From Pararhodobacter zhoushanensis (GTDB taxonomy: Bacteria > Pseudomonadota > Alphaproteobacteria > Rhodobacterales > Rhodobacteraceae), in contig NZ_REEZ01000005.1 in NCBI RefSeq assembly GCF_003990445.1, positions 229,869-293,868 of the forward strand: a stretch of DNA of 64,000 bases, given 5' to 3'. Position numbers and translations under genes: made by a program. The notes beneath the pieces are model-generated. The model made no database searches, was not told where the DNA came from, and saw only the letters and a program-made list of their open reading frames with translations. This document shows, one piece after another, positions 10,816 through 26,723 of this stretch; within the stretch, counting starts at the first letter, position 1; the number at the start of each line of letters is the position of its first letter.

Positions 10816-12189
10816 TTAAGGGCCGATGGCCGGTAGCATCACCTCGACAATCAGGCCCGGTCGGTTGTCGCGCAGCGCGACGCGGCCCTGGTGCTTCTCG
10901 ACAATCGCCCGCACCAGCGCCAGTCCCAACCCGTTGCCGGGTTTCGAGCGGCTGGGATCGAGCCGGAAGAAGGGTTCGAACACCCGCTCCATCGATGCTG
11001 CGGGAATGCCCGGCCCGGTATCGGCGACTGTGAAGCGCAGGGCGGGACCGTCGCGCTCCAGCCGAACGGCGATCCGGTTGCCCATGGACCCATGGGTCAC
11101 GGCATTCTGCAACAGATTCACCACCAGCTGCTGCAGCATCTGCGCGTCGCCGGTCACCCCGTAATCCGACCCGGCCTCGGCCGCGAAGGACAGGCTTTGC
11201 CCCTCGTCCTCGGCAATGAGGGCGAAAGTTTCGACCAATTCGGCGGTCAGGGACCGCAGATCGACACGGGCAATCAGCGGTGCGTCGCCTGAGGTCTCGA
11301 TCCGCGAGAGTTGCAGGTAGGAATCGAAAATAACGCGCATGCGTTCGAGTTCGACCTGCGTATCGCTCATGGCCTCTGTCGGGTCCTCCCCCTGTTCGAC
11401 CCGCTCCATAGCGCGGCCGAGTGAGAGATAGGCGCGGCCCAGTGGCGATTTCAGGTCATGGGCTGCAGCGGCGGCAGTGTTCCGCGTCGTCGCGATCATC
11501 CGCGACAGCCGGTCGAAATGCAGGTTCATCTGCCGGGCGATGCGGTCGATCTGCGTGCTGCCGCCACGGTCCGAGATGCGCACCGCTGTATCGCCCTCGC
11601 TGGTTTTCGACAGCGCTGTCTCGATGTCGCGCAGGCGCCGCAGGCTCTTGCTGCTCAGGTAATATCCGACGGAGAGCATGGTCAGAACGATGAGGAAACC
11701 GCTCAGTGTCAGGGTACGGAACAGCAGGATCTTGGTCCGATAGAGCAGATCCAGCCGCTCGCCCACCACCAGCAGGTTTTCCCCCAACCGAGCGGCGACA
11801 TAAATATACTCCTGCGTGACCGCCCCGGTCGCGGCAGCGGCATGGTCGAGGGGGCCGACCTGCAGCCCCTCGCTCGCCGGGCGGGTCATGATGTTGCCGG
11901 CAATGAAGGCACCCTCTGCCCCGAACAACGCTGCCGCGTGATGCCCGCCCGAGGCCACGCGCGACAGGGTGGAGATGGTTGCGGCGATCTGAGCGTCGCC
12001 GTCGATCGCGTGTTCAGCGGCCACGATGTCCCAGCGTTGGTGCACGTCATCGCCCAACTCGGCGATCAGGCTCTGGTTGACAGAGGTGATCGTTACCCAG
12101 CCGAAGAGCAGCAACACCACGACAAAGGCGACGGCCGAGCGCAGGACGGCCGAGAAGGCTGCGCCCGAAAGGATATCACCGCGGTCCAT
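10816..12189 (-). CDS. Membrane sensor histidine kinase
   Basis: 457 residues. Order of parts: TM1 (about 13-38), a periplasmic sensor of ~110 residues, TM2 (about 157-179), HAMP linker, dimerisation helix with the phospho-acceptor His at about 244 (AAAHDLKSPLG), N box (NLLQNAVTHG), G1 (VADTGPGIP) and G2 (GNGLGLALVRAI). It autophosphorylates and passes phosphate to the OmpR-type regulator encoded just upstream; the two reading frames overlap by 14 bases. The signal is unknown. The pair is transcribed away from the HdeD-MprF-Cyo operon, which it probably controls (inference). Confidence 0.92.
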   Translation of the reverse strand: MDRGDILSGAAFSAVLRSAVAFVVVLLLFGWVTITSVNQSLIAELGDDVHQRWDIVAAEHAIDGDAQIAATISTLSRVASGGHHAAALFGAEGAFIAGNIMTRPASEGLQVGPLDHAAAATGAVTQEYIYVAARLGENLLVVGERLDLLYRTKILLFRTLTLSGFLIVLTMLSVGYYLSSKSLRRLRDIETALSKTSEGDTAVRISDRGGSTQIDRIARQMNLHFDRLSRMIATTRNTAAAAAHDLKSPLGRAYLSLGRAMERVEQGEDPTEAMSDTQVELERMRVIFDSYLQLSRIETSGDAPLIARVDLRSLTAELVETFALIAEDEGQSLSFAAEAGSDYGVTGDAQMLQQLVVNLLQNAVTHGSMGNRIAVRLERDGPALRFTVADTGPGIPAASMERVFEPFFRLDPSRSKPGNGLGLALVRAIVEKHQGRVALRDNRPGLIVEVMLPAIGP

Positions 12190-12853
12190 GCATCGTATAC
12201 CCGGTGTTGCGGATCGTGTGGATCAGCGGCGTATCGAAGGGTTTGTCGACCTTGGCGCGCAGCCGGCTCATATGGGTCTCGACCACGGTGGTGTTGGGTT
12301 CGAAATTGAAATTCCAGACCCGTTCCAGCAGCAAGGTTCGCGTCACTACGCGCCCGGCATTGCGCATCAGAATTTCCAGAATGCTGAATTCCTTGCTGTG
12401 AAGCTCGATCACGCTGCCCTGGCGGGTGGCCGTGCGCGACAGCAGGTCCAGCGTCAGGTCGTGGACACTCAAGGTCCGCTCGACCTTGGTTTCGGTCTTG
12501 CGCCGGACGATGGCGTCGATCCGGGCCACGAGTTCCGAGAAATGGAACGGCTTGGTCAGGTAATCATCGCTGCCCGCTGCCAGCCCTTCGACCCGGTCGT
12601 CGACCTGCCCTAGCGCGGTCAGGAACAGCACCGGCAGCGATGACTTCGAGGCCCGGAGCGCCTTCAGCACCGACAGACCGTCCATGCCCGGCAGCATCCG
12701 GTCCAGGATCACCACATCGCAGCTGTTGTAGAGACAATAGCTGAGCGCGTCCCGGCCGTCCGCGACGTGATCGACGGAGTGGCCTTGTTCCGAGAGGCCG
12801 GCCACGATGTAATCGGCCAGTTTCGCATCGTCTTCGGCGAGCAGGATCTTCAT
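12176..12853 (-). CDS. OmpR/PhoB-type response regulator
   Basis: 225 residues. The receiver domain has the acidic pair EDD (7-9), phospho-acceptor Asp51 (VVILDRMLPGMDG) and the conserved Lys (YLTKPF). The C-terminal winged helix ends with VVETHMSRLRAKVDKPF and IHTIRNTGYTM, typical of OmpR/PhoB. The start is ATG 12853 with AAGGAGA upstream. First gene of the unit with the sensor kinase. The 162-base divergent region upstream contains three palindromes that could be its binding sites. Confidence 0.93.
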   Translation of the reverse strand: MKILLAEDDAKLADYIVAGLSEQGHSVDHVADGRDALSYCLYNSCDVVILDRMLPGMDGLSVLKALRASKSSLPVLFLTALGQVDDRVEGLAAGSDDYLTKPFHFSELVARIDAIVRRKTETKVERTLSVHDLTLDLLSRTATRQGSVIELHSKEFSILEILMRNAGRVVTRTLLLERVWNFNFEPNTTVVETHMSRLRAKVDKPFDTPLIHTIRNTGYTMHGPR

Positions 12854-12871
12854 GGGCGTCGTCTCCTTGCC

Positions 12872-12929
12872 CTCATTTAATGAGAAAGGTGCCCCCAGTG
12901 CCAGCGAAAGCGCTTTCTTTGCAAGAAAG
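12872..12929. promoter_or_regulatory. Palindrome cluster in the divergent promoter region
   Basis: Three palindromes lie between the response regulator and the HdeD gene: CTCATT-T-AATGAG (12872-12884), GAAAGCGCTTTC (12906-12917), and the overlapping CTTTCTT-TGC-AAGAAAG (12913-12929). The last two share bases, so occupancy of one would exclude the other. They are plausible operator sites for the divergent two-component regulator, but I have no direct evidence of binding. Confidence 0.5.
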
Positions 12930-13015
12930 TAAGGTTCGCGCGATTTTCGGGTGCGGGGGCGGGGCTATGGCTTGGGTGTCCGGTCGCGCCCACCGGCAGC
13001 ACAGGAGCCAAAGCA

Positions 13016-13585
13016 ATGCCGACATTCCTGACAAATCTTGCTTCGCCGATGCGTCCCCCCGACGCGCGATCCGGCCTCCATCGCCTGCGGGTGGTGGGCG
13101 GGATCCTCGTCGCTATCGGCCTCTTGGCCATCCTCCTGCCCACGGTCGCGACCTTGGCCGAGGAAGAGTTGGTGGCTTCGCTATTGACCCTCTGGGGAGC
13201 GGCCGGCCTGTGGTTTTCCTGGGCCATCCGGCCCAGTTCGGAATGGCGCTATGGCGTCGCAGGCTTCGGTCTCTTGTTCATTGCCGGCCTGGCGCTGGTC
13301 CTCTTCCCCGTCGCCGGGATCGCCGCGCTGACCGTGGTAATGATGCTCTCCTTTCTGATGGAGGGGATTCTCTCGATCCTCTACGGGCTGCGCAGCAGCG
13401 CTCAGGTGTCGACCTGGGAGTGGCTGGTGTTCAGTGGGCTTTGTTCCTTCGCCGCTGGCCTCGTGATTCTCTTCGGCTGGCCCTGGACCGCCGGATGGAC
13501 GCTGGGCCTGGTGATGGGGCTCAACTTCCTGTCGACTGGTTTGTCGCTGTTCATGTTGACGAAACCGGGCCGGGCGACGGGCTGA
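13016..13585 (+). CDS. hdeD: HdeD-family acid-resistance membrane protein
   Basis: 189 residues, largely hydrophobic, with about six membrane segments, beginning after a short polar head (LRVVGGILVAIGLLAILLPT). Paired two-helix repeats and the motif GGILVAIGLLAI..TL match the HdeD family, which in E. coli supports acid resistance at high cell density. CAGGAG precedes the ATG. First gene of the rightward operon; mprF follows after 74 bases. Inner membrane. Mechanism is unknown even in the model organism, so the acid role is by family only. Confidence 0.75.
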   Translation: MPTFLTNLASPMRPPDARSGLHRLRVVGGILVAIGLLAILLPTVATLAEEELVASLLTLWGAAGLWFSWAIRPSSEWRYGVAGFGLLFIAGLALVLFPVAGIAALTVVMMLSFLMEGILSILYGLRSSAQVSTWEWLVFSGLCSFAAGLVILFGWPWTAGWTLGLVMGLNFLSTGLSLFMLTKPGRATG

Positions 13586-13659
13586 GAGGCTTGCGGGCCG
13601 GGGGCAAAAGCAGGCCAAGATGGGGCGGTGTCGAATCGAGCTGACTGAGGAAGACCGGA

Positions 13660-16245
13660 ATGACCGCTAAGAGCCTGTCCCTGATCTCGCGGGCGATCCG
13701 GGTGATCGAACACCCGGCGATAAAGATTGCGATTCCCGTGGTCGTGGGCCTGCTGGCGGTCTTCGTGCTGCACAAGCTGGCGAGCCATGTGAGCTGGGCC
13801 GATGTGAAATCCGACCTGTCGGGGGCGAAACCGGACGTGCTGCTGCTGGCGCTCGCCTGTACGGTGCTCAGTTTTGTCGGCATCGGCAGCTATGACTGGC
13901 TGAGCCTGCGCGCCGTCGCGCCGGGCCGGATGCCGGCATCCGTGCCCATCGTCGCCGGGGCGGCGGGCTATGCCGTCTCGGGCCTGTTGGGCGTGTCCTA
14001 TCTGACCGGGACGGCGGTGCGTTACCGGGTCTATTCCGCCTTCGGCCTCGATCTGGTCAAGATCACCGGCATCGTCGCCATCTCGTGGACCGGCTTCTTT
14101 TCGGCGCTGGTGCTGGGCTTTGGTGCGCTGCTGACCTTCCACCCGACCGGTCTGAGCGCGGTGGCCAACATCCCGCCAGGGGTCGAGACCGTGGCGGGCG
14201 TGGCGCTGCTCGCGGCCTTCGGCGGCTACCTGTTGTGGCTCGGCACCGGAAAGCGGCGCATCCGTTCGGGCGAAAAGTCTCTGGACCTGCCGGGGCCGCT
14301 GCAGGCGCTGAGCCTGACATTCGCCGGCGTCCTCGATGTCTCCGGCGCGGCGCTCACGCTCTACGTGCTGATGCCGCCGGATCTGGTGCCCAGCCTGCCG
14401 GTCTTCGCCACTGTCTTCATCGCGGCCGTGGGGCTCGGCATCCTCAGCCATGCTCCGGGCGGACTTGGCGCCTTCGAGGCGACGATCATCGCAGGCTTCG
14501 GCGCGGGCGGCCGTTCGGATGTTCTGGCCTCGCTGCTGCTCTACCGGCTGATCTACACCGTCCTGCCCTTCGCTATCGCCGCCTTCGGCCTCGCCCTTGC
14601 TGCCGCCCTGGCCCATCGCGGAAGGCTGCGCAGCACCGCGAACACGCTCTGGCACGCGCTGAAACCCGTGGTGCCGGTGCTGGCCTCGGCGCTGGCCATG
14701 CTGGCCGGGATCATGCTGCTGGTCTCGGGCTCGCTGCCGGCCGAGGGCACGCGGCTTGAGCTGTTGCGCGACCTTCTCCCGCTGGGCGTGATCGAGGTCT
14801 CGCATCTGGCCGGCAGCCTTGCCGGCGCGCTGCTGATCGTCGTGGCGGCGGGGCTGTACCGCAAGCTCTACCGTGCCTGGCTGGTGGCTATGGCGCTGAT
14901 CGGGCTTGGCTTCATCGTCTCGCTGGCCAAGGGGCTTGATTGGGTCGAGGCGCTGTCGATGGCCGCCATGCTGATCGCCCTCGGGCTGCTGCGCCCGGCC
15001 TTCTACCGTGCCGAGGACAGCTCGCTCTTCCGGCTGGACCGGCGCTGGATTCTCAGCCTGCTGGTGCTGGCGGCAGCGGTCTTCTGGATCGGGCTTTTCG
15101 CCTATGATCATGTCGATTACCGCAATGCCTTGTGGTGGCAGTTCAGCTGGACAGGCGACGCCTCGCGCTTCCTGCGCGCCAGCCTCGTGGTGGCGGGGGT
15201 GCTGGCCGTGGTCACGGTCAATTCGCTGATCAACCAGCGCCCCTCGCTGCACGAAACCCGGCAGATCCCCGACATCGTGCACCGGCTGGTGGCGGAAAGC
15301 GAGGATACCGAGGCCAATATCGCCCTGACCGGCGACAAGCTGTTCCTGGTCTCGCCCGACGAGAAGGCCTTCATCGCCTATGCCGATACCGGCGCCTCGC
15401 TCATCGCCAAGGGCGATCCGGTCGGCGAGCGCAAGGCGGGCGAGGCGCTGATCTGGTCGCTGCGCGAACGCGCCTATCGCAGCGGCAAGCGGGTCGCCTT
15501 TTACGCGGTCTCGCCGGCCTATCTGCCGACCTATCTGGATCTCGGCCTCTCGATCCTCAAGATCGGCGAGGTGGCGCGGGTCGATCTGCGGGGCTTCACG
15601 CTGGACGGGTCGAAACGCAAGGATCTGCGGCAGGCCCGCAACCGCGCCGCGCGCGACAGTTTCACCTTCACGGTGATTTCCCGCGCCGAACTGGAGCCGG
15701 TGCTGCCCGATCTGCGGCGCATCTCGGACGCCTGGCTGGAGCGCAAGCAGGGCGAGGAAAAGGGCTTCTCCCTCGGCGCTTTCACCGAGGACTACATGCG
15801 CAATTTCGACGTGGCGGTGCTGCGCGACCCCGAGGGGCGGATCGTCGCCTTCGCCAACCTCTTTCAGGGCGCGAACCGGCACGAGCTGTCGCTCGACCTG
15901 ATGCGTTACCTGCCCGAGGCGCCGAATTTCGCCATGGACGCGCTCTTCGCCGAAATGCTGCTCTGGGGCGCGGCGGCGGGGTTTCACTGGGCCTCGCTGG
16001 GGGCCGCGCCCTTCGCCGGGGTCGAGAACCGCGAGCTTGCGCCGCTCTGGAACCGGATCGGCGGCTTCATCTATGAACACGGCGAGCATTTCTACCGCTT
16101 CGAAGGGTTGCGCGCCTACAAGGAGAAATTCGACCCGGTCTGGTCGCCGAATTACCTCGCCTGCCCCGGCGGGCTGGCCGCGCCGCGCATCCTCTACGAG
16201 GTCAATGTGCTGGTCTCGGGCGGGCTGCGCGGACTGATGAAATAG
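13660..16245 (+). CDS. mprF: Phosphatidylglycerol lysyltransferase/flippase
   Basis: 861 residues, full MprF size. The N-terminal ~530 residues form the multi-helix flippase domain. The C-terminal ~320 residues form the soluble aminoacyltransferase (DUF2156) domain, with LSLDLMRYLPEAPNF, FAEMLLWGAAAGFHW and FYRFEGLRAYKEKFDPVW. The enzyme moves Lys (or Ala) from aminoacyl-tRNA to phosphatidylglycerol and flips the product outward, reducing surface negative charge and sensitivity to cationic peptides and acid. GAGGAAG precedes the ATG. The next gene starts 9 bases after its stop. Which amino acid is used cannot be told. Confidence 0.92.
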   Translation: MTAKSLSLISRAIRVIEHPAIKIAIPVVVGLLAVFVLHKLASHVSWADVKSDLSGAKPDVLLLALACTVLSFVGIGSYDWLSLRAVAPGRMPASVPIVAGAAGYAVSGLLGVSYLTGTAVRYRVYSAFGLDLVKITGIVAISWTGFFSALVLGFGALLTFHPTGLSAVANIPPGVETVAGVALLAAFGGYLLWLGTGKRRIRSGEKSLDLPGPLQALSLTFAGVLDVSGAALTLYVLMPPDLVPSLPVFATVFIAAVGLGILSHAPGGLGAFEATIIAGFGAGGRSDVLASLLLYRLIYTVLPFAIAAFGLALAAALAHRGRLRSTANTLWHALKPVVPVLASALAMLAGIMLLVSGSLPAEGTRLELLRDLLPLGVIEVSHLAGSLAGALLIVVAAGLYRKLYRAWLVAMALIGLGFIVSLAKGLDWVEALSMAAMLIALGLLRPAFYRAEDSSLFRLDRRWILSLLVLAAAVFWIGLFAYDHVDYRNALWWQFSWTGDASRFLRASLVVAGVLAVVTVNSLINQRPSLHETRQIPDIVHRLVAESEDTEANIALTGDKLFLVSPDEKAFIAYADTGASLIAKGDPVGERKAGEALIWSLRERAYRSGKRVAFYAVSPAYLPTYLDLGLSILKIGEVARVDLRGFTLDGSKRKDLRQARNRAARDSFTFTVISRAELEPVLPDLRRISDAWLERKQGEEKGFSLGAFTEDYMRNFDVAVLRDPEGRIVAFANLFQGANRHELSLDLMRYLPEAPNFAMDALFAEMLLWGAAAGFHWASLGAAPFAGVENRELAPLWNRIGGFIYEHGEHFYRFEGLRAYKEKFDPVWSPNYLACPGGLAAPRILYEVNVLVSGGLRGLMK

Positions 16246-16254
16246 GAGCGGTGG

Positions 16255-16578
16255 ATGATCGTCAATTTCGAAACCCATGCCTCGAACGAGCGGACCTTCC
16301 TGTCCTGGGTGCGTACCGCCGTCGCCATCGTCGGCTTCGGCCTGGCGGCGGCGCGGCTGGGTGACCGTGCGGTGCCGGCGTGGTCAACGTATCTGCTGTT
16401 CGGTGCGGGGGCGGCGGTGGTGCTGATCGCCTGGGCCCGGATGCGGCATGTGCGCAAACGCATCGACCTGGCTGAGCGGCTGCCCGACGATGACGGCCCG
16501 GCCGAAGCCTTCCTGCTGCTGCTGGTCATCGCGCTGTTTGCCCTGTTGGGGAGCTTCGCCGTCCATGTCGCGCCCTGA
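16255..16578 (+). CDS. DUF202 small membrane protein (YidH-like)
   Basis: 107 residues. The N-terminal ANERTFLSWVRTAVAIVGFG-type block (here ASNERTFLSWVRTAVAIVGF) is the hallmark of the DUF202/YidH family. Three membrane segments follow, separated by a short basic loop (RMRHVRKRIDLAERL). Function is unknown. It sits 9 bases after mprF with TAGGAG as ribosome site and overlaps the next gene by 14 bases, so it is clearly part of the operon. Confidence 0.85.
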   Translation: MIVNFETHASNERTFLSWVRTAVAIVGFGLAAARLGDRAVPAWSTYLLFGAGAAVVLIAWARMRHVRKRIDLAERLPDDDGPAEAFLLLLVIALFALLGSFAVHVAP

Positions 16579-17236
16579 CCTGCCCCCGGCCCGCGCGCAG
16601 ATCCGACGGTTGCCCTTCACACTGGGCTTTCTGGCGGTGATGCTGGTGGCCAATGCGCTGGCCGGAACCTTCGCTGGCCGGATCGACCCCGAGGTTCTGG
16701 CCGCGCGGGGCATCGGCGTGGCCGCGCTTGGCGACGGCGACCTGACGCGGTTTCTGACCGCCACGTTTCTGTCGCACGACCTGCCGATGCTGCTGCGGCA
16801 ACTGCCCTTCGCAGCCCTTGTGATCGGCGCAGCGGAATGGCGCTGGGGCAGCGCGCGGACAGCCGGGCTCTTCTTCGGCATCGACCTCGCCGCGACGCTG
16901 ATCTTGCTGGCGGTTGTCGCGCTGGTCCCGGCCCTCGGCGCGCTGGAGGGGGTCACGGATGTCGGCATGTCACTGGGCGGTTTCGGGCTGATCGGTGTCT
17001 GGATCGCCACCCGGCGCCGGGCCGGGATCATGCTGGCCGCAATTCTCGCAGCCATCGTGGTTAAATTTTCCCTGGCGCCCGAGGCGCTTGCCGATGCGGG
17101 GCATGTCTTCGCTCTGGTCATCGGTTTCGGTATCGGTCTTTATGGAGCGCAGGCCCTGGGTCCTGCCGCCGGTCCTGCCGGCGTCGGGCCTCCCACAAGG
17201 CCTGAAAGCGCAAGGCAGTGGGGCGGGCGGCAATGA
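16565..17236 (+). CDS. Rhomboid-like integral membrane protein
   Basis: 223 residues from the ATG at 16565, which overlaps the DUF202 stop; the frame is open upstream, but that part is a shadow of DUF202. About six membrane helices. A Ser in DVGMSLGGFGLIG and a His in DAGHVFALVIGFGIG are placed like the Ser-His dyad of rhomboid proteases and resemble the actinobacterial rhomboid-like group (DVGxS). The canonical GxSG is not exact, so protease activity is uncertain. Its stop overlaps the cyoA start (ATGA). Being locked between mprF and cyoA suggests a role in envelope or oxidase assembly. Confidence 0.6.
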   Translation: MSRPDLPPARAQIRRLPFTLGFLAVMLVANALAGTFAGRIDPEVLAARGIGVAALGDGDLTRFLTATFLSHDLPMLLRQLPFAALVIGAAEWRWGSARTAGLFFGIDLAATLILLAVVALVPALGALEGVTDVGMSLGGFGLIGVWIATRRRAGIMLAAILAAIVVKFSLAPEALADAGHVFALVIGFGIGLYGAQALGPAAGPAGVGPPTRPESARQWGGRQ

Positions 17237-18186
17237 GTGTTCGGCAGATTTCCAGGATCCTTCCCGGGGCACTGGCTCTCGCGCTGACGGGATGCACCGG
17301 GTCGGGGGATTCCTTCCTGCAACCCGGCGGGCCGATCGCGGCGGCGCAGCGGACGGAATTGTTCCAGATCTTCGGCTGGACGATGATCGCGATCCTGCCG
17401 GTCTTCGTGCTGGTGCCGCTGCTGCTGTGGCGCTACCGCTACCGCAATGCCAAGGCGCGCTACACGCCGGATTGGGACCGCTCCGCGATCCTCGAGGTGT
17501 TGATGTGGGGTGTGCCGCTGGTCATCGTCGTGGTCCTGTCCGCGCAGCTTTACCGAACCACCCACGCGCTGGACCCGGTCCAACCGCTTGCGTCCGAAAA
17601 CCCGCCGCTCCGGGTGCAGGTCGTCGGCCTCGACTGGAAATGGCTGTTCCTCTACCCCGACCTCGGGATCGCCACGGTCAACGAGCTGGCCTTTCCGGTG
17701 GAGACCTCGGTCGCGCTGGATCTGACCACCGATACGGTGATGCAGTCCTTTCTGATCTCGGCGCTGGCGGGGCAGATCTATGCCATGCCCGGCATGCGCA
17801 CCCGGCTGCACATTCTGGCCGATGCGCCCGGTAGTTTCGAGGGCGAGAACACCCAGTTCAACGGCACCGGCTTTCCTGCGCAAAGGTTCGCGGCCAGGGC
17901 GATGAGTGCCGCCGATTTCGACGCCTGGGTGGCGCAAGTCCGGGCCGATGGCCAGCCGCTGACCGAGGCCAGCTACGCGCTGCTGGCCGAATCCTCGACC
18001 GGGGCGCAGGCGCAGGCGCGACTGGGGGCCGAGGGGATGGCCCCGGGAGTCCTGCATTTCTCGACGGTCGAGGGCGACCTCTTCCACAGCATCCTTCACC
18101 GCTACATGCACGGCAATCCCGTGCCGCCTTCCGCCCAGCCCGGCGCGGTTGGTTACGCGCCCGAGACCGCGGAGCAAACCCGATGA
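17233..18186 (+). CDS. cyoA: Cytochrome bo3-type quinol oxidase subunit II
   Basis: 317 residues from the ATG that overlaps the previous stop. It has a lipoprotein signal (LALALTGC, lipobox LTGC), two membrane helices, then a periplasmic cupredoxin domain. The CuA ligands of cytochrome c oxidases are absent: the region reads QSFLISALAGQIYAMPGMRT, as in CyoA, so the substrate is quinol and not cytochrome c. Codons overlap with cyoB (ATGA), giving coupled translation. The signal, helix pattern and gene order make the assignment firm. Confidence 0.93.
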   Translation: MSVRQISRILPGALALALTGCTGSGDSFLQPGGPIAAAQRTELFQIFGWTMIAILPVFVLVPLLLWRYRYRNAKARYTPDWDRSAILEVLMWGVPLVIVVVLSAQLYRTTHALDPVQPLASENPPLRVQVVGLDWKWLFLYPDLGIATVNELAFPVETSVALDLTTDTVMQSFLISALAGQIYAMPGMRTRLHILADAPGSFEGENTQFNGTGFPAQRFAARAMSAADFDAWVAQVRADGQPLTEASYALLAESSTGAQAQARLGAEGMAPGVLHFSTVEGDLFHSILHRYMHGNPVPPSAQPGAVGYAPETAEQTR

Positions 18187-20276
18187 CCGACCCGATTTTC
18201 GGCCGCCTCGACCTGTCGTCCCTGTCCGTCTGGCGCGCCTTCCAGGACCCCTCGCTGAGCGAGCTGATCGGGGCGGGCGCGGCGATGGCGGTGATCCTGG
18301 GCGCGTTGGCCACGCTGGCGCTGCTCACCTGGATCCGGCTCTGGGGGCCGCTCTGGCGCGACTGGCTGACCAGCGTCGACCACAAGCGGATCGGCATCAT
18401 GTATTGCGCGCTGGCGCTGATCATGCTGGCAAGGGGCGTCATCGAGGGCGTGCTGATGCGCACGCAACAGGCTTTCGGACTGCACGGCGGCTTCCTCACC
18501 CCCGACCATTTCTCGGAACTCTTCAGCACCCATGGCACGATCATGATCTTCTTCGTGGCGATGCCCTTCATCGCCGGGGTGATCAATTACGTCATGCCGT
18601 TGCAGATCGGCGCGCGCGACATGGCCTTTCCGGTGATGAACCAGATCAGCCTGGGTCTGACTGCAACGGGCGCGGCGCTGGTGATGATCAGCCTTGTGTT
18701 GGGCGAATTCTCGACCGGCGGCTGGGCCAATTACCCGCCCTATACCGGCGCCGATTTCCAGCCCGGGCCGGGGCCCGATTACTGGATCTGGTCCATCGTG
18801 CTGGCGGGGATCGGCACCACGCTCTCGGGCATCAACTTTGCCGTCACGATCTACAAGGAGCGCGCGCCGGGGATGCACTTCCTGCGCATGCCGATCTTCT
18901 GCTGGACCGTCATCTGCACCTCGATCATCATGATCTTCGCCCTGCCGCCGCTGACCGTGGCGGCGCTGATGCTGGCCGCCGACCGCTATCTGGATTTCCA
19001 CTTCTTCACCAACGACCTCGGCGGCAACATGATGAATTACGTCAACCTCTTCTGGTTGTTCGGTCATCCTGAGGTTTATCTGCTGGTCATCCCGGCCTAT
19101 GGCGTGTTTTCCGAGGTCATCTCGACCTATTCGGGCAAGCGGATCTACGGCTACATGTCGATGGTCTATGCCACCATGTCGATCGCCGTGCTCAGCTTCT
19201 GCGTCTGGCTGCACCATTTCTTCACCATGGGTCAGAGCGCCAATATCAACGCGGCCTTCGGCATCGCTTCGATGGCGATCGCCGTGCCGACGGGCGTCAA
19301 GATATACAACTGGCTGGCCACGATCTTTCGCGGGCGGGTCCGCATGACGGTGCCGATGATCTACGCCACCGGCTTTTTCTACCTCTTTGTCATCGGCGGG
19401 CTGACCGGCGTCATGCTCGCCAATCCGGTGATCAGCTATCAGGTCCACAACACCTTGTTTCTGGTGGCGCATTTCCACAATGTCATCATCCCGGGCGTGC
19501 TGTTCGGGTTGCTCGCGGGCTATCATTACTGGTTCCCCAAGGCCTTTGGCTTTCGCCTGCACGAGGGTTGGGGGCGTGCGGCGGCGCTCCTCTGGATCGT
19601 CGGTTTCTCCTTCACCTTCCTGCCGCTCTACTGGCTGGGGCTGCAGGGGATGCCGCGCCGCTCTGCCTCGTTCGGCGATCCGTCTTTCCAGCCAATGCTG
19701 TGGCTGGCGCTGTTTGGCGGGATGCTGATTCTGGCGGCGCTCGGCTCGCTCATGCTTCAGCTCTGGGTCAGTATCCGCAACCGCGTGCAGTTGGCGGTGC
19801 CGCTGGGCGATCCCTGGAACGGGCGCTCGCTGGAATGGTCGATCCCCTCACCGCCGCCTGCCTATAATTTCGCGCTGCTGCCGCAGGTCCTGGACCGCGA
19901 CGATTTTGCCGAGGCCAAGGCCAGCGGCCGCGCCTATGCCGAACCCGCAGTCTATGAAGACATCGAGATGCCGGACAATACCGCGATCGGCATGATCGTC
20001 TGCGTCTGTTCGACGTTGATGGGGCTGGCGCTGGTGTTCTGGATCTGGTGGCTGGCGGTGCTGTCGCTGGGTGTCATGGTCGTCTCGCTGATCGGCCGCA
20101 CCTTCCGCACCGACCTCAGCCATGTGATCCCGGCCGCCCAGATCGCCGCCGAGCATCGCGCCTGGCTGGCGCGGGTCCGGGCGGCGCCGGCGGTGGACCG
20201 GCTGGCGGAAACCCATGATCGCAACCGGGGCCGGGCTATGCCGGAACGCCCCTTCGCAGCGGGGGCGGCGGAATGA
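18183..20276 (+). CDS. cyoB: Cytochrome bo3-type quinol oxidase subunit I
   Basis: 697 residues, longer than cytochrome c oxidase subunit I, as in CyoB. Heme-copper motifs are intact: SVDHKRIGIMY, STHGTIMIFF (low-spin heme His), QIGARDMAFP with the D-channel Asp, WLFGHPEVYLLVIPAYGVFSE-type loop with the His-Tyr cross-link site and gating Glu, LHHFFTMGQ (CuB His pair), and VAHFHNVIIPG (heme His ligands). The enzyme reduces O2 to water with ubiquinol and pumps protons across the inner membrane. ATGA overlaps on both ends. A heme O synthase gene (cyoE) is not in the cluster. Confidence 0.96.
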   Translation: MTDPIFGRLDLSSLSVWRAFQDPSLSELIGAGAAMAVILGALATLALLTWIRLWGPLWRDWLTSVDHKRIGIMYCALALIMLARGVIEGVLMRTQQAFGLHGGFLTPDHFSELFSTHGTIMIFFVAMPFIAGVINYVMPLQIGARDMAFPVMNQISLGLTATGAALVMISLVLGEFSTGGWANYPPYTGADFQPGPGPDYWIWSIVLAGIGTTLSGINFAVTIYKERAPGMHFLRMPIFCWTVICTSIIMIFALPPLTVAALMLAADRYLDFHFFTNDLGGNMMNYVNLFWLFGHPEVYLLVIPAYGVFSEVISTYSGKRIYGYMSMVYATMSIAVLSFCVWLHHFFTMGQSANINAAFGIASMAIAVPTGVKIYNWLATIFRGRVRMTVPMIYATGFFYLFVIGGLTGVMLANPVISYQVHNTLFLVAHFHNVIIPGVLFGLLAGYHYWFPKAFGFRLHEGWGRAAALLWIVGFSFTFLPLYWLGLQGMPRRSASFGDPSFQPMLWLALFGGMLILAALGSLMLQLWVSIRNRVQLAVPLGDPWNGRSLEWSIPSPPPAYNFALLPQVLDRDDFAEAKASGRAYAEPAVYEDIEMPDNTAIGMIVCVCSTLMGLALVFWIWWLAVLSLGVMVVSLIGRTFRTDLSHVIPAAQIAAEHRAWLARVRAAPAVDRLAETHDRNRGRAMPERPFAAGAAE

Positions 20277-20902
20277 GCGGCTCGAACCTTCATCCCGGCC
20301 TGAACCTCGGGGCCCGGCACGGCAGCGCGCATGAGGGGGCCGAGACCGTCGTCTTCGGCTTCTGGATCTTCCTGATGAGCGATCTGGTGATCTTTGGGCT
20401 GGTCTTCGCGTCCTATCTGACGGTCGCGAATCCGCTGGGCATGGCGGGTGGGCCCGGCCCGGCCGACGCTTTCGACCTGCGCAGCATTTTCGTCCAGACC
20501 ATGATCCTGCTCACCAGCAGCCTGACCTTCGGCTTCGCCACGCTGGCGCTCCGGCACGAAAAGGGGCGGACGGTGATCGCTGGCTGGCTGGGGGTAACGC
20601 TGCTGCTGGGGCTGGCGTTTCTGACGCTGGAGCTGCGCGATTTCGCCCATATGATCGAGGTCGGCGCAGTGCCTCAGCGCAGCGGCTTCTGGTCAGCCTT
20701 CTGGGGCCTCGTGCCGCTGCATGGGCTGCATGTCGCCCTCGGCTGCCTGTGGATCGCGGTGATGCTGGCGCAGATGGCGCTTCTAGGGCTGGTGCCGGTG
20801 GTCAAGACGCGGCTGCTGCGGCTGGGTCTCTTCTGGCACTTCCTCGACCTGATCTGGGTCGCGATCTTCTCCATCGTCTATCTCGGAGGGCTGATGCCAT
20901 GA
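20273..20902 (+). CDS. cyoC: Cytochrome bo3-type quinol oxidase subunit III
   Basis: 209 residues with five membrane helices, the CyoC length. Seen: FGFWIFLMSDLVIFGLVFAS, then GFWSAFWGLVPLHGLHVALG, and a closing WHFLDLIWVAIFSIVYLGG, all standard for subunit III of bo3 oxidases. It stabilises subunit I. Starts in an ATGA overlap with cyoB and ends in another with cyoD. Confidence 0.94.
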   Translation: MSGSNLHPGLNLGARHGSAHEGAETVVFGFWIFLMSDLVIFGLVFASYLTVANPLGMAGGPGPADAFDLRSIFVQTMILLTSSLTFGFATLALRHEKGRTVIAGWLGVTLLLGLAFLTLELRDFAHMIEVGAVPQRSGFWSAFWGLVPLHGLHVALGCLWIAVMLAQMALLGLVPVVKTRLLRLGLFWHFLDLIWVAIFSIVYLGGLMP

Positions 20903-21204
20903 GCGATCCTGACCACAGAAGCGAGGCGCGGCTTTACCTGGCGGGCTTCGGGCTGGCCCTGACGCTGACGCTGGTGCCCTTCGGGCTGGTCCATTGGGGG
21001 CTGATGCAGGGAAAGGCGCTGGCGATCACCATCGCGGTGCTGGCCGTGGCGCAGATCGTCGTCCATCTGCGGTTCTTCCTGCACATCGACCTCTCGCGGC
21101 AAAAGCGCGAGGATCTGCAGCTGATCCTTTTCACCGTGCTGCTGCTGGGGATCATGGCCTTCGGCACGCTCTGGATCATGGGCAACCTCGCCACGCGGAT
21201 GTAG
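20899..21204 (+). CDS. cyoD: Cytochrome bo3-type quinol oxidase subunit IV
   Basis: 101 residues with three helices. The start is ATG 20899, overlapping the cyoC stop. The motif VVHLRFFLHIDLSRQKRED is the CyoD signature (HxxFFLH-like), and the second half is a hydrophobic helix ending in TLWIMGNLATRM. It assists CuB assembly in E. coli. Last gene of the rightward operon; a 12-bp terminator stem follows 12 bases later. Confidence 0.92.
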   Translation: MSDPDHRSEARLYLAGFGLALTLTLVPFGLVHWGLMQGKALAITIAVLAVAQIVVHLRFFLHIDLSRQKREDLQLILFTVLLLGIMAFGTLWIMGNLATRM

Positions 21205-21215
21205 CGCAACGCATC

Positions 21216-21242
21216 GGCGGCGCGGGAGGGTCCCGCGCCGCC
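21216..21242. terminator. Strong symmetric hairpin between cyoD and the leftward operon
   Basis: GGCGGCGCGGGA - GGG - TCCCGCGCCGCC, a perfect 12-bp G/C stem located between convergent transcripts. It probably ends both; no clear U-run. Confidence 0.7.
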
Positions 21243-21260
21243 GGTCAGGCTGTCCGACGC

Positions 21261-21410
21261 TCAGGCGCCGAAGAGATGCGGGAACAGCCCGGCCAGTCCG
21301 AAGAGGATCAGATAGGCCGCGATCACGTAATTCAGGATCCGGGGGAAGATCAGGATCACCACCCCGGCGATCAGCGCCAGCAGCGGCTGCAGGATGATGA
21401 CGCCGGTCAT
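21261..21410 (-). CDS. DUF3096 small membrane protein
   Basis: 49 residues, beginning MTGVIILQPLLALIAGVVIL and ending GLAGLFPHLFGA. It is two hydrophobic helices around a short FPRILNY turn, matching the tiny DUF3096 proteins. Its ATG overlaps the stop of the DUF1269 gene (ATGA), which supports it being real and translationally coupled despite the length. Function is unknown. Last gene of the leftward operon. Confidence 0.75.
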   Translation of the reverse strand: MTGVIILQPLLALIAGVVILIFPRILNYVIAAYLILFGLAGLFPHLFGA

Positions 21411-21931
21411 GCCTGTTCCGGCGCGCTGGCGCCGACCTCCGCCTTATGGGCCGCATCGAAGGCGCGGCGCAGGTGGTTCTCGGCGTCGGTGTCGAGATTG
21501 GTGCGCAGCACCCGCCCACCATGATCGGCAAGCCGCTCGATCACCCGGTCCGAGGCCTCGGTCCGCACCATCATGAACAGCGCCGCCTGACCCGGTTGCA
21601 GCACCCCGGCCACATCCTTCATGAAGCCGTCGTTGATGCCGTAATCGGTCAGCGCACCCGACAGCGCGCCCGCCCCGGCCCCCACGGCCACCCCCAGCAG
21701 CGGGTTGAAGAAGATCATCCCGACCAGAAGCCCCCAGAAGGCGCCGCCGGCCGCGCCGGCGGTCCACATGTTGACCATCTGGTTGAGCTTAACATTGCCC
21801 TTGGCATCGGCCACTGCGACCACCGCATCGGCAACATCGACGAGATAGTCGCGGGCCATGGTCATCAGAGCGTCGCGGGCTTCCTCGGCTTTTTCGGGTG
21901 TGTCGTACCCGATGACGATCAGTTCGGACAT
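21407..21931 (-). CDS. DUF1269 membrane protein
   Basis: 174 residues from ATG 21931, chosen because AAAAGGAG lies seven bases upstream; 16 more codons are open before it. MSELIVIGYDTPEKAEEARDAL is followed by DAVVAVADAKGNVKLNQMVN, then a Gly-rich hydrophobic stretch with GAFWGLLVGMIFFNPLLGVA, and a helical tail. This order is typical of DUF1269, a stress-associated membrane family of unknown mechanism. It is coupled to the DUF3096 gene. Confidence 0.82.
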   Translation of the reverse strand: MSELIVIGYDTPEKAEEARDALMTMARDYLVDVADAVVAVADAKGNVKLNQMVNMWTAGAAGGAFWGLLVGMIFFNPLLGVAVGAGAGALSGALTDYGINDGFMKDVAGVLQPGQAALFMMVRTEASDRVIERLADHGGRVLRTNLDTDAENHLRRAFDAAHKAEVGASAPEQA

Positions 21932-21962
21932 GGGGTTCTCCTTTTCAGAATTTGTACGAATT

Positions 21963-22232
21963 TCAGTTGGATGCGACATGCGTGGAGTCGAAGCTTTCGA
22001 ACCATTGCTGCACCGAGCGTTCGAGATCGCTCACATGGTGGCCATGGGCCTCGGCTTCGGCGATCTCGCCGTTCAGACGCGCTTGCACACGCTCGTAGCG
22101 GTCCTTGAGCTCGTTCGCCGTCAGGTGCGCTGCGTCGTGCCGCCAATGCGCCTGCTCGCGCAGCTTTGCTTCAGCGGTCTCGATCCTGGTTCCAAGCGCC
22201 GCAAGGCGGTCATGAAGGGCGTCGTTTTCCAT
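21963..22232 (-). CDS. Small coiled-coil protein (sll1863-type stress protein)
   Basis: 89 residues, almost entirely charged helix: LAALGTRIETAEAKLREQ, then LKDRYERVQARLNGEIAE. Spacing of hydrophobics fits a coiled coil. Size and pattern resemble the sll1863-like stress response proteins, but similarity among short coiled coils is weak evidence. CAGGAG precedes the ATG. It lies between the 3-hydroxybutyrate dehydrogenase and DUF1269 genes. Confidence 0.65.
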   Translation of the reverse strand: MENDALHDRLAALGTRIETAEAKLREQAHWRHDAAHLTANELKDRYERVQARLNGEIAEAEAHGHHVSDLERSVQQWFESFDSTHVASN

Positions 22233-22250
22233 GGCATGTCTCCTGACAGG

Positions 22251-23033
22251 TCAGTTCATGTACCAGCCGTGGCTGACCACCAGCGACTGACCGGTGAGCG
22301 CGTTGGTCGGGAAGGCGGCGAAGACATGGGCCACTTCGGCCACGTCCTCGATGGTGGTGAATTCCTGGTCCACGGTCTCGCCCAGCATGATCTTGTTGAC
22401 GACCTCCTCCTCGGAGATGCCCAGATCGCGTGCCTGTTCGGGGATCTGCTTCTCCACCAGCGGGGTCTTCACGAAGCCGGGGCAGATGACGTTGGCCCGG
22501 ACACCGTGCTTGGCACCCTCTTTCGAGATGACGCGGGCTAGGCCCAGAAGCCCATGTTTCGCCGTCACATAGGCCGACTTCAGCGGGCTCGCTTCCTTGG
22601 AGTGCACCGAGCCCATGAAGATGATCGAACCCGAACCCGCCTTGTACATATGCGGCAGCACGGCTTTCGAGGTCAGGAACGCGCCGTCCAGATGGATCGA
22701 GAGCAGCTTTTTCCATTCGTTGAAGGGGAAATCCTCCAGCGGGTGCACGATCTGCACGCCGGCATTGGATACCAGCACGTCGATCTTGCCCCATTTCTTG
22801 ATGACCGCGGCGACGCCGGTATTCACCTGGGCCTCGTCGGTGACGTTCATCTCGACGGCCATGGCTTCACCGGGGCCCTGCGCGGTCAGCGCGTCGGCGG
22901 TCTTCTGCGCCGCATCCAGTTTCAGGTCGGCGATGACGACCTTGGCGCCGTCAGCCACATAGCGCTTGGCGATGCCCAGGCCGATACCGCTGGCCGCGCC
23001 GGTGATGATGCAGACTTTATCTTTGAGGTTCAT
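22251..23033 (-). CDS. bdhA: 3-hydroxybutyrate dehydrogenase
   Basis: 260 residues from ATG 23033 (GGAGAC upstream). SDR enzyme converting (R)-3-hydroxybutyrate to acetoacetate with NAD. Seen: [15 protein letters not shown], an Asp after beta-2 (IADLK), [16 protein letters not shown] (the bdh-type NAG loop), [20 protein letters not shown] with the catalytic Ser and YxxxK, and a C-terminal [12 protein letters not shown]. The [10 protein letters not shown] and [13 protein letters not shown] blocks distinguish it from generic SDRs. With the adjacent acetoacetate decarboxylase gene it would form a route from 3-hydroxybutyrate to acetone. Confidence 0.88.
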
Positions 23034-23069
23034 GGTCTTGTCTCCGTTTCTTGCGTTGTGCACGAGGTG

Positions 23070-23432
23070 TCAGGCGGCAGCCCAGGTCAGGGCGTCTGAT
23101 TGCTCGCCGGCTTTGAAAAGTTTGGTTTTTGCAGGCAGGAGGGGCATGAACATCCGCATCCCGTTGGCGATCCAGTCGTGATCGGTGACGACAGCGATCC
23201 GCTCGAAGTCGCGCCAGTGCGTCACGCCGAACAGCGCGTCATCCAGCATGGCACCGGCTTCGAAACCCTCGAATTCCGGGCCGATCACATAGACAAAGCG
23301 CACCTTGCCCTGTGCCGTGATCTGCGCGTCCAGCGCCGGGATCAGGGTGGATTTGTAATCCTCGCCGGTGATCTTGCCGACGGCCCTGAAGGCCAGCACG
23401 TTGCTCGCAGTGGGTACAATACGTTCCAACAT
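23070..23432 (-). CDS. SpoIIAA-like (STAS superfamily) protein
   Basis: 120 residues from ATG 23432, chosen for the AAAGGAAA site. Pattern of the SpoIIAA-like family: MLERIVPTASNVLAFRAVGK, a KVRFVYVIGPEFEGF strand, DDALFGVTHWRDFERIAVVT and WIANGMRMFMPLLPAKTKLF. The family has a STAS-like fold and is often found beside membrane or lipid genes; its biochemical role is unclear. It lies between adc and bdhA in the same operon. Confidence 0.78.
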   Translation of the reverse strand: MLERIVPTASNVLAFRAVGKITGEDYKSTLIPALDAQITAQGKVRFVYVIGPEFEGFEAGAMLDDALFGVTHWRDFERIAVVTDHDWIANGMRMFMPLLPAKTKLFKAGEQSDALTWAAA

Positions 23433-23463
23433 GGGATTTCCTTTCGTTTCCTTGGGGTCGATG

Positions 23464-24201
23464 TCAGGCGAGGTAATCGTGAACGACCTCACCCAGGCCG
23501 AGCGTCAGGTCGGTCATCAGATGGACCGCCGAGATAACCTCGAGCACCGGCAGTTCGGCCACAGGGGCCAGCGCGTGCTGGTGCAGCTCAAGTCCCGCGG
23601 GGCCTTCCCAGGCGCCTTTCAGCGTCACATCCAGGGTGTAGTAGCGGACCAGCTCGCAGATGCGCGGGGTGCAATCGACGTGCGGAATGACCTTCAGCAT
23701 GAAGTTCGGTGCGTCGAAGCCCTTGAGCACGGTGGCATGGTCCAGTTCGCGGTGCTTGTAGCCCATGGTTCCGGTGGCAACCCGGACGGACCCCACATCA
23801 AGCGTGCCGACCAGCGTGTCCTTCTCGACCCTCAGCGCCGGATCGGCCAGCTTCTTCGGAAAGCCCCAGATCTCGCGGCCACCGGCGATGGGTGCGTCGT
23901 CGTTGAGGAACATCGAATGGACATAGCCGCCGGCGATGCCGTTCAACGTGACAGGGATCACCTGACCGCTTTCGGTGTAATCGCCGAAGCCGGTCGAGTC
24001 GGGCATGCGGATGAATTCGTATTTCACCAAAGGCTCGGGGATCTCCAGCGGCTCGGGCACCACCCGGCGCAGGGCCTCCATGTCGGTGCGGTAGGTGATG
24101 GTCAGGAATTCGCGGTTGACGAAGCGGTAGGGCCCTTTGGGATAGGACGGGCTGGTGACCGGCATCGCGAAGGCATTGGCTACGAGGTCAGCGGCGTTCA
24201 T
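23464..24201 (-). CDS. adc: Acetoacetate decarboxylase
   Basis: 245 residues, standard size. It converts acetoacetate to acetone and CO2, consuming a proton. The Schiff-base Lys is in [15 protein letters not shown], and the [21 protein letters not shown] block matches the family, as does [26 protein letters not shown] precedes ATG 24201, which begins one base after the patatin stop region. Located two genes from bdhA, so the pair would take 3-hydroxybutyrate to acetone. Confidence 0.93.
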
Positions 24202-24202
24202 G

Positions 24203-25318
24203 TCAGGCTTCCTTTTTTTCGGTGGTTCCAAGATCGAAGACGTGCAGGCCATCGACCCCCACGCGGCGGGATTTCCAGGACGGGTGCGTCAACGTGCGGG
24301 TCACGTCCGCAAGCCCAGCGGCCCAATGGTCGGACATCGACTGGCGCGAGAATTCATAGTCCTTGCCGCTGCCCTCGAACCCTTCCTTGCGGTGGATGAG
24401 GTGCACCAGCGTAACCGGGCACGAGGGGCCCGCCTGGCGCAGCAGCGCCAGATCCGGGTCGTCACGCAGCCCCTCGGGCAGTTTCGCAGCCAGCCGTTCG
24501 GCGGCGGTGTGCAAGGCGTGCAACTGGCGGTAGCGGTCGGTGGTCAGGCGCGTCCGGCTGGAATACCGGATATCCTTCTCGCGCTGCTGGACCTCGATTA
24601 CGTCCTTGGGCAGCCCGCCCCGCGCGTTGAAGAGGTCAACCTGGAAGATGCAGAGCGGTTGATCGCCCTCGGCCTGTTCCATGACGTATTGCAGGGGCGT
24701 GTTCGAGACGAGGCCGCCGTCCCAGTAATGCCGCCCACCGATCTCGACCGGCGGAAAACCCGGCGGCAGGGCGCCGCTGGCCATGATGTGGCGCGCATCG
24801 ATCCGGGTGGTGCGACTGTCGAAATAGGTGAAGTTGCCGGTTTCCACATCGGTAGCGCCGACGCAAAGCCGTGGGCCCTTGCTGTTCAGAAGCTCGAAAT
24901 CCACCAACTCGTTCAACGTCGCCTCCAGCGGGCTCGTGTCATAGAAACTGAGCCCGGGTTCGGACAGGAAGGGCCAGAAAGCCGAGACAGGACGCGGTCG
25001 GAAGAAGCCCGGCGCACCGGCCAACATCACCTCGGTAGCGGCCAGCTCGGAAAAAGCGCGGCGCCCGCCGACGGTCCAGAAGGGCGCTGCCACCGGCAGA
25101 TTGTTGGTGATACGGTCCCAGAAGGCTTGCATCGCGGGCACCCGGTCCTCCGGGCGGTTGCCGCAGATCAACGCCGCGTTGATCGCCCCGATCGAGATCC
25201 CGGCAATCCAGTCGAACGAGAAGCCGTTCTCCGTCAGGGCGGCGAAGGTCCCGGCCTGATAGGCGCCAAGCGCGCCGCCGCCTTGCAAGACCAGTGCGTT
25301 GAGTTCGGTTCCAGCCAT
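24203..25318 (-). CDS. Patatin-like phospholipase
   Basis: 371 residues from ATG 25318; an ATG three codons earlier is possible, but AGGGG is too close to it. Patatin motifs are complete: oxyanion loop [12 protein letters not shown], nucleophile [11 protein letters not shown] (GxSxG), and the catalytic Asp in [11 protein letters not shown]. The C-terminal region ([16 protein letters not shown] and following) matches the longer bacterial patatins often found beside bdh/adc genes. It would hydrolyse phospholipids or another acyl ester. First gene of the leftward operon. Intracellular; no signal peptide. Confidence 0.88.
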
Positions 25319-25435
25319 GTCGATCATTCCCCTGAAGCGGCATCGTTTGTCGTTGTTGAAGATGTAGGGGGCCTGTCCTGCGCCAGACTTTCGGCAATCT
25401 TACATCCGAGACAGATTCACCAAGCTTCCATGACA

Positions 25436-25470
25436 AAACGAAAAACCCGCCACCGGGGGGGTGACGGGTT
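25436..25470 (-). terminator. Intrinsic terminator of the small secreted protein gene
   Basis: Read on the minus strand: AACCCGtCACC-cccc-GGTGgCGGGTT followed by TTTCGTTTTG. It follows the stop of the gene at 25493-25900. Confidence 0.75.
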
Positions 25471-25492
25471 CATCGCAAAGGCGGATCTGTGG

Positions 25493-25900: not shown

Positions 25901-26188
25901 CGCAATCTCCTTTCAGACAGGGCGCCGCGGCGGCCGGGCAGTTGCAACCGGCACCAGCCGCGGGCGGTGGATTTGGGGCGGCACCAACAATGCTGCGCCC
26001 CGCAAAGCGCTTAGGATTCTCAGACAGAAATTCGGCATGTTTCGCCTCCCATGGACGTTCAGCATGGGGCGTTTCTGACCGATCCTCTTGCAGCGGAATT
26101 GTCCGGAGTCTTACAAAAGCGACAGGTTCGTCAGCCGATCTCCGGACCGGCAGCGCGCTGCCGCTTTGGCATGGTTCCGTCGTAGGCA

Positions 26189-26286
26189 ATGCCCCTGCTC
26201 ATCATGGAGCTGGTCGGCGTTGCGGGGCTGGTACTGTCGCTTCTGCTCGGACGGGCTAACCGCCAGATTGCCGAACACTACCAGGT
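26189..26286 (+). pseudogene. Small membrane reading frame cut by an IS remnant
   Basis: MPLLIMELVGVAGLVLSLLL starts a hydrophobic segment followed by GRANRQIAEHYQ, then runs into the IS end. Probably the 5' part of a short gene broken by the insertion. Could be chance. Confidence 0.3.
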
Positions 26287-26712: not shown

Positions 26713-26723
26713 AACACTACGTG

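Follow-up and report, generated by a model that had tools for sequence, protein, structure and literature searches.

Do genes for membrane-lipid modification, quinol oxidation and ketone-body metabolism that lie side by side serve one response under the command of a single sensor? This question is raised by a 64,000-nucleotide (nt) stretch of Pararhodobacter zhoushanensis contig NZ_REEZ01000005.1 (the window; all coordinates are window positions unless a locus is named). A preliminary description had coupled a two-component system and an operon for HdeD, MprF and the oxidase CyoABCD with a second operon for a patatin-like phospholipase, acetoacetate decarboxylase (ADC) and 3-hydroxybutyrate dehydrogenase (HBDH). 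The same predicted switch site was found before both sets of genes, here and in relatives, so that, as far as sequence can tell, they probably act together as one stress response. We read the element as a stress island gained by horizontal transfer and equipped with its own two-component system, predicted operators and three transcription units, and put the probability of this reading at roughly 65%.

The inserted island and its genes

The extent of the island was defined by comparison with a same-genus genome (G187, locus L146). There, the match to window positions 8339-10052 stops at base 17595, and the match to 26723-28998 starts at base 17606. Because this genome has both flanks contiguous, window positions 10053-26722 are extra DNA, and the island was carried in as one piece. 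The empty site was found in one of three same-genus genomes; the other two carry NAPRT without the left neighbour next to it, as far as the fetched stretches reach. The ADC family had no match in any of the three at an E value of 1e-30. The island and its edges are as follows.

10053-26722, no strand: inserted island, 16.7 kb, flanks contiguous in G187
9305-10054: left flank, SDR gene
from 26724: right flank, NAPRT
10202-10537, minus: transposase remnant at the left edge, Mu-type DDE_2 (Pfam DDE_2, 26.1 bits; cut-off, 23)
26304-26519, minus: transposase remnant at the right edge, DDE_Tnp_1_2 (Pfam)

Insertion mediated by a tRNA was considered and dropped: the sole tRNA call in the island (tRNA-His, 20160-20237, by ARAGORN) lies within CyoB and is probably false. 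A scan of positions 9900-27000 against Rfam gave no match at gathering score.

The gene content, like the recurrence, the shared predicted operator and the regulator clade described below, was likewise established by computation. The island holds three predicted transcription units. Unit 1 (HdeD-MprF-DUF202-rhomboid-CyoABCD) spans HdeD (13016) to CyoD (21204) on the plus strand, with a longest gap of 74 nt and five overlaps. Unit 2 (patatin-ADC-SpoIIAA-HBDH-coil-DUF1269-DUF3096) spans patatin (25327) to DUF3096 (21261) on the minus strand, convergent with unit 1. Unit 3 encodes a small secreted protein, g25493 (25493-25900, minus), which the preliminary description had overlooked and which also has an operator upstream. 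The regulator and kinase genes (10816-12853) are divergent from HdeD. The start codons of the frames were chosen by inspection.

10816-12189, minus: sensor histidine kinase with HAMP domain (Pfam; orthologues 49-71% identical in six other loci)
12176-12853, minus: OmpR-type response regulator, CusR/HprR-like (Pfam; NCBIfam TIGR01387, 252.7 bits, cut-off 279.2; tree)
13016-13585, plus: HdeD-like (DUF308) membrane protein (Pfam DUF308, 45.3 bits; cut-off, 25)
13660-16245, plus: MprF, lysyl-phosphatidylglycerol synthase and flippase (NCBIfam bifunc_MprF NF033480, 839 bits; cut-off, 600)
16255-16578, plus: DUF202 membrane protein (Pfam)
16565-17236, plus: rhomboid-like membrane protein (no Pfam match; GxSxG and a late His by eye)
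17218-18186, plus: CyoA, quinol oxidase subunit II (Pfam COX_ARM and COX2, the latter at cut-off)
18183-20276, plus: CyoB, bo3-like quinol oxidase subunit I (Pfam, NCBIfam, solved relatives)
20273-20902, plus: CyoC, subunit III (intact frame; conserved in L002-L004 and L084; a Thioclava relative is annotated oxidase subunit 3)
20899-21204, plus: CyoD, subunit IV (Pfam)
21261-21410, minus: DUF3096 (Pfam)
21407-21931, minus: DUF1269 (Pfam)
21963-22232, minus: small coiled-coil protein (no Pfam match; conserved in L002, L004, L084 and L136)
22251-23033, minus: HBDH (NCBIfam NF009931, 369.6 bits, cut-off 340; solved relatives)
23070-23432, minus: SpoIIAA-like protein (Pfam)
23464-24201, minus: ADC (NCBIfam PRK02265, 430.4 bits; cut-off, 150)
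24203-25327, minus: patatin-like phospholipase (Pfam Patatin and DUF3734)
25493-25900, minus: g25493, secreted protein of 135 amino acids, third unit (frame; signal peptide by eye)

All the genes named in the preliminary description are thus present, according to intact frames and profile scores. Its gene set stood; its start coordinate of 12853 did not, as the two-component genes lie to the left of it. The name HdeD holds by way of DUF308. The bo3 assignment needs qualification: E. coli bo3 is the nearest solved relative of CyoB, ranking top among 41 solved sequences, whereas the score against the curated bo3 equivalog TIGR02843 (863 bits) is under the cut-off of 1020, which leaves CyoB outside that family. 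GHPEVY, QIGARD and TGVKI, which we take to be channel motifs, are conserved. In MprF, the LPG_synthase_C domain scored 295 bits and LPG_synthase_TM 26.9 bits, the latter below its own Pfam cut-off of 33.4. HBDH was also above the cut-off of TIGR01963 (325 versus 307 bits). The catalytic motifs are retained in both ADC and patatin; those of ADC (PKK, ESGQ and NRE) align with the solved enzymes 3bgt, 3c8w and 3bh2, and presumably represent their active-site Lys pair, Glu and Arg.

The rhomboid-like protein has a 50% identical relative on a Ponticoccus plasmid, annotated as a rhomboid protease. For g25493, no match was found in Pfam, NCBIfam or PADLOC; its homologue on the Ponticoccus plasmid (L136, NZ_CP047167.1, 7547-7953) is broken into two overlapping frames. 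A role for patatin as a phospholipase effector of cyclic oligonucleotide-based antiphage signalling (CBASS) was rejected, since the curated family score was low (42 bits; cut-off, 200), the PADLOC match was weak and no cyclase was named among the scanned island genes.

Recurrence of the module

Relatives were collected around ADC. The best 80 of at least 524 confirmed ADC relatives in genome contigs were taken as ADC loci, each covering at most 10 kb per side and some less. Patatin occurs in 70 of the 80 and HBDH in 68, and patatin-ADC-HBDH is therefore a common core. As companions we counted, above set identities, the regulator, kinase, HdeD, MprF, DUF202, rhomboid, Cyo, CLS, EmrA, DUF1269, DUF3096, YfdX, DedA, SpoIIAA, coil and g25493; the regulator of L002, cut by the end of its stretch, was left out of the count, and the Dyella and Rhizobium locus counts, which mirror shared synteny, were excluded from the evidence. 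At least one companion was present in 16/80 loci and at least two in 14/80. Where ADC identity was at least 80%, two or more companions were found in 8/8 loci (L002-L009), L006 having only DUF1269 and g25493. The pairing of both operons was repeated in 8/80 ADC loci (L002-L005, L007-L009 and L012), in genome G195 and on the Ponticoccus plasmid. At L005, from a Pseudorhodobacter metagenome-assembled genome (MAG), kinase and MprF are fragmented (11.6-13.4 kb) beside an intact patatin operator, by decay or an assembly fault. A gene for a DUF347 membrane protein was seen in the second operon, named in L012 (12169-12930) and with a relative in L008 (12531-13292).

This type of ADC is patchily distributed. 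Within the order, 18 of 391 genomes had it at an E value of 1e-30, 9 of which, including that of the window, scored above 400 bits; within the class, 26 of 385 had it at 1e-100. When the kinase was searched for regardless of ADC, only the genome of the window was retrieved among the 385 of the class at 1e-60, and 14 plasmid records were retrieved at 1e-40. Six of these plasmids were inspected: the two with the most similar kinases (Ponticoccus, 65.5%; CP031593, 38.3%) carry patatin, ADC and HBDH nearby, and the other four showed no ADC within the 8-10 kb per side fetched.

The neighbours of more distant kinases bear on another explanation, a cationic-peptide response in which a PmrB-like sensor would have MprF as its main output and the metabolic operon would merely provide lipid turnover and energy. 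MprF comes second in the first operon, after HdeD; a kinase of weak similarity (32%) lies near eptA, dgkA and PAP2 on an Agrobacterium plasmid, and another lies near glycosyltransferases on a Rhizobium plasmid. However, these two kinases are distant, YfdX is the commoner neighbour in the closer group, and ADC and HBDH would be ill-suited to a pure charge response. We therefore consider this explanation rather unlikely. One plasmid (L154, CP129669.1, 738-3971) bears, fairly near a distantly related kinase and an eptA-type gene, a cluster for a rhomboid protein, a Clp protease subunit, TrxC and a cation:proton antiporter; this cluster resembles part of the transmissible locus of stress tolerance (tLST).

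An oxidase is also found with the core in another arrangement. In Thioclava and in G012, the patatin-ADC-HBDH core is preceded on its own strand by genes for a Cyo oxidase and a phospholipase-D-like (cardiolipin-synthase-type) protein; in Thioclava, a few genes separate them from the core. This is a second, differently built link between oxidase and core. In the literature, mostly openly accessible papers, we found no description of ADC-patatin-HBDH with HdeD/MprF partners, a weak sign of absence.

The predicted operator and its regulator

All three units are preceded by a predicted operator resembling CTTACA-N4-TGTAAG.

12914-12938, plus: operator facing HdeD, between it and the response regulator gene (alignment and matrix scan)
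25394-25418, minus: operator ahead of patatin (alignment and matrix scan)
26105-26129, minus: operator upstream of g25493 (third best site of the window, 20.3 bits)

The three sites of the window are imperfect dyads. A search for 16- to 20-nt k-mers common to the intergenic regions of the window alone gave nothing clear, and the operator emerged only on laying orthologous promoters side by side. These align without gaps from the operator to a -10-like hexamer, at a fixed distance, in 7 loci on the HdeD side and 10 on the patatin side (L084 and L090 being one genome). A palindrome of the window, CTTTCTTTGCAAGAAAG, was dropped as a candidate operator, TTTCTTNNNAAGAAA occurring in 0/81 loci. With a combined matrix, which includes the first two sites of the window, the best sites of the window scored 31.0, 26.8 and 20.3 bits and the fourth 10.1.

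In a cross-test, each locus was scanned with a matrix made from the HdeD-side sites of other loci, its own HdeD site being left out of the ranking. Among 39,000-128,000 positions, the patatin site came top in 8 of 10 loci; its rank was 2 in L009 and 3 in L007. The background was low: 123 loci with 4.4 million positions gave 6 sites of at least 20 bits, 5 of which lay in loci chosen for their regulator homologues. With its own locus excluded from the matrix, a site of at least 15 bits was found upstream of the core in 10/80 ADC loci (L002-L009, L012 and L045), that is, in 8/8 of those with close module orthologues versus 2/72 of the others. No site reached 15 bits upstream of the core in L041, L065 or L068, whose regulator, MprF or HdeD genes are more distant. 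On two plasmids outside the matrix, the top two matches were the two expected promoters (Ponticoccus) or lay in the gap between YfdX and an EmrAB-patatin-ADC-HBDH run (CP031593). The claim that the two operons are coupled thus gains support from one insertion, joint recurrence in relatives and a common predicted regulator site; both co-occurrence and a predicted two-component link are seen at the level of sequence.

Further operator-like sites were noted elsewhere. In L045, a beta-proteobacterial MAG with no module companions in the stretch examined, one of 16.3 bits lies 57 nt upstream of patatin. In L009, a second kinase end beside YfdX (3-1128) has its own operator-like site, and a gene for a DUF1344/CusF-like secreted protein (16024-16764) has another, which suggests a larger regulon in that genome. 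In L101, L102 and L114, regulator homologues are accompanied by two successive kinase genes, with an operator-like site ahead of the second.

The predicted operator fits the adjacent regulator, whose best models are CopR/CzcR-type (TIGR01387) and HprR, although it falls below the cut-offs of both. The CusR/HprR box of E. coli, TTACA-N4-TGTAA, has the same geometry (PMC9302797; this and the other papers cited are drawn on for the accessible part of their text). The perfect dyad YTTACN6GTAAR had 8 occurrences in the 161 kb surrounding regulator homologues (7/23 loci) versus one in 293 kb elsewhere; without Y and R, the counts were 5 and 1. As controls, two other spacings gave no match, and two of four scrambled forms gave one match each. 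A 33-regulator tree placed the seven module regulators in one clade (support, 99/96), with CP031593 (YfdX, EmrAB, patatin-ADC-HBDH) as its next neighbour (95/83). YfdX, a stress protein of the periplasm, adjoins the two-component genes in 10/34 loci (L009, with its second, cut kinase, and L041, L096, L098, L103, L105, L106, L139, L151 and L152), and it does so in 9/16 non-module rows of the 23-row tree group that holds the module. This suggests an order of assembly in which a YfdX-linked sensor would have gained EmrAB and patatin-ADC-HBDH, HdeD-MprF would then have replaced YfdX, and Cyo would have come last.

The kinship of the regulator also raises the possibility that the regulon is as described and that its signal is a periplasmic oxidant such as chlorine, or copper, as for HprSR and CusSR. 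The model scores and the operator geometry point that way; E. coli HprSR answers hypochlorous acid and CusSR copper (PMC9302797), and hdeD together with the YfdX-type genes pscA and pscB of the tLST confers heat and chlorine resistance (PMC8407380). Against this, no copper efflux, Msr, ClpK, Hsp20 or KefB gene was named among the scanned island genes, and MprF, Cyo and ADC would have no evident anti-chlorine role. We regard such a signal as somewhat improbable.

Several observations weigh against our reading of the two operons as one module. The operator sites were initially chosen by visual inspection of both promoter sets together, and the cross-test was therefore not blind; the plasmids and the regulator-homologue loci were. 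The reverse test was weaker: the HdeD-side site came top in 4/7 loci, with a rank of 2 in L002, 3 in L090 and 5 in the window, and the best site outranking it in L002 and in the window was that before g25493. A pattern drawn from the three sites of the window gave three matches in its own genome, all in the island, a partly circular result because of its origin; it gave two in G195, both at its module, and none in G012 or in the three same-genus genomes without the module, and its backwards control gave none in the own genome and two in G195. The Thioclava cluster or plasmid had no operator (best, 9.1 bits), and 16/23 regulator-homologue loci had no perfect dyad within 3.5 kb. The regulator gene was seen beside HdeD in 5/8 module ADC loci (L002, L007, L008, L009 and L012); the available sequence of L003 and of L004 stops short of its position, and L005 has none. 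We rejected the idea that Alphaproteobacteria generally keep MprF or CyoB near ADC, since each of the two lies within 25 kb of it in 3/34 ADC-bearing genomes, that of the window included (9 order matches above 400 bits and 25 further class matches, with 9 weaker order matches excluded; contig ends may hide neighbours). HdeD (DUF308) was near ADC in 2/34 (G000 and G195). The composition recurs in relatives less strictly than first proposed: the 41-kb Ponticoccus stretch is without CyoABCD, and Cyo is therefore optional. That stretch also differs from the window by the absence of DUF202 and SpoIIAA and by additional EmrAB and cytochrome b561-type genes. No companion was found in 64/80 ADC loci within the stretches examined. 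Finally, E. coli at low pH prefers an oxidase other than cyo (PMC2651895).

The lack of companions in these 64 loci, together with the transposase remnants at both edges, would also be expected if two unrelated cargo operons shared one mobile element. We think this highly unlikely, as module-bearing relatives, with kinases down to 49% identity, keep the common operator and a fixed promoter geometry.

The proposed response and known systems

What could such a module do? Conversion of 3-hydroxybutyrate to acetoacetate gives NADH, and acetoacetate plus a proton yields acetone and CO2. Hydrolysis of polyhydroxybutyrate (PHB) frees one proton per unit. The preliminary description had proposed that internal pH is raised from stored polymer by decarboxylation; this does not hold, because the proton of hydrolysis cancels the one taken up, so that the polymer-fed route is proton-neutral and mainly an NADH supply. 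By stoichiometry, net proton removal needs 3-hydroxybutyrate or acetoacetate entering as the free acid. MprF proteins add lysine to phosphatidylglycerol.

The core might instead serve simply to mobilise storage polymer and be regulated for that purpose. The genome encodes a polyhydroxyalkanoate synthase, and a Legionella bdhA-patD mutant is impaired in PHB breakdown (PMC4549902, citing Aurass et al.). The predicted operator, however, would tie the patatin unit to the two-component system, and the island HBDH looks like a dedicated extra because a second HBDH is encoded outside the island. We consider a plain storage operon unlikely.

Acid or envelope stress is plausible as the theme of the module, by analogy with published responses and from the YfdX neighbours of the regulator group. 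When S. meliloti is shifted to acid, lpiA (MprF) belongs to the most strongly induced genes and cyoB to a slowly rising cluster (PMC2651895), and HdeD and YfdX matter for the acid survival of K. pneumoniae (PMC6394985). Acid is likewise a plausible signal, with an oxidant, a metal or a cationic peptide as its rivals.

For the single module favoured here, we infer regulator binding, activation, signal, metabolic flux and benefit as follows. The kinase would sense a change at the cell envelope, and the phosphorylated CusR/HprR-like regulator would bind the CTTACA-N4-TGTAAG-like operators and activate all three units: HdeD-MprF-DUF202-rhomboid, plus the CyoABCD quinol oxidase in the version of the window; the patatin unit; and the small secreted protein. 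The output would be a lysyl-phosphatidylglycerol membrane, more proton pumping, and oxidation and decarboxylation of 3-hydroxybutyrate and acetoacetate to neutral acetone and CO2. Envelope and proton motive force would thereby be protected; the stress concerned is most probably acid, organic-acid or cationic. That one mobile envelope-stress two-component system commands all of these, with decarboxylation as a tool for pH and proton motive force, is a tentative proposal, possible although the odds are against it.

If it is true, ketone-body decarboxylation would fill the place of the enterobacterial amino-acid decarboxylases, and released acetone would indicate envelope stress in Alphaproteobacteria of this kind. 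One sensor would link a quinol oxidase, membrane charge and the predicted formation of acetone, and genes usually filed as unrelated or unknown (DUF1269, DUF3096, DUF202, SpoIIAA-like, rhomboid and g25493) would belong to a testable regulon, which the predicted operator allows to be traced in other genomes.

The island shares features with several known systems. Like the tLST, it is a mobile stress-gene island with hdeD, and YfdX, a tLST gene, adjoins relatives of its regulator group; unlike the tLST, it has its own two-component system, with MprF, Cyo and ketone-body genes instead (PMC8407380). Only an hdeD-like gene of the tLST core (sHsp20, clpK, yfdX/pscA/B, hdeD and kefB) is present among the island genes named by Pfam or NCBIfam. 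Rhizobial lpiA-acvB/atvA likewise includes an acid-induced MprF-type lysyl-phosphatidylglycerol synthase in Alphaproteobacteria, whereas the island MprF is followed by DUF202, has no AcvB/AtvA next to it and keeps other gene company (PMC5936775, PMC2651895). With CusSR/HprSR, the island shares the regulator family and, in its predicted sites, the geometry TTACA-N4-TGTAA; its predicted targets lie outside metal efflux and methionine sulfoxide repair, and its regulator is under the TIGR01387 cut-off. Legionella bdhA-patD also combines a 3-hydroxybutyrate dehydrogenase with a patatin-like protein and is required for normal PHB breakdown, although no ADC is named in the accessible part of that account and the patatins are likened by family, not by orthology (PMC4549902). 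Finally, as in the EvgAS/YfdX-HdeD system of enterobacteria, where YfdX and HdeD are under two-component control in acid, an HdeD-like gene would answer to a sensor here; the accessible text on that system names no MprF, Cyo or ADC partners, and the likeness is one of description, not of comparison between the regulators (EvgA, RcsB) (PMC6394985).

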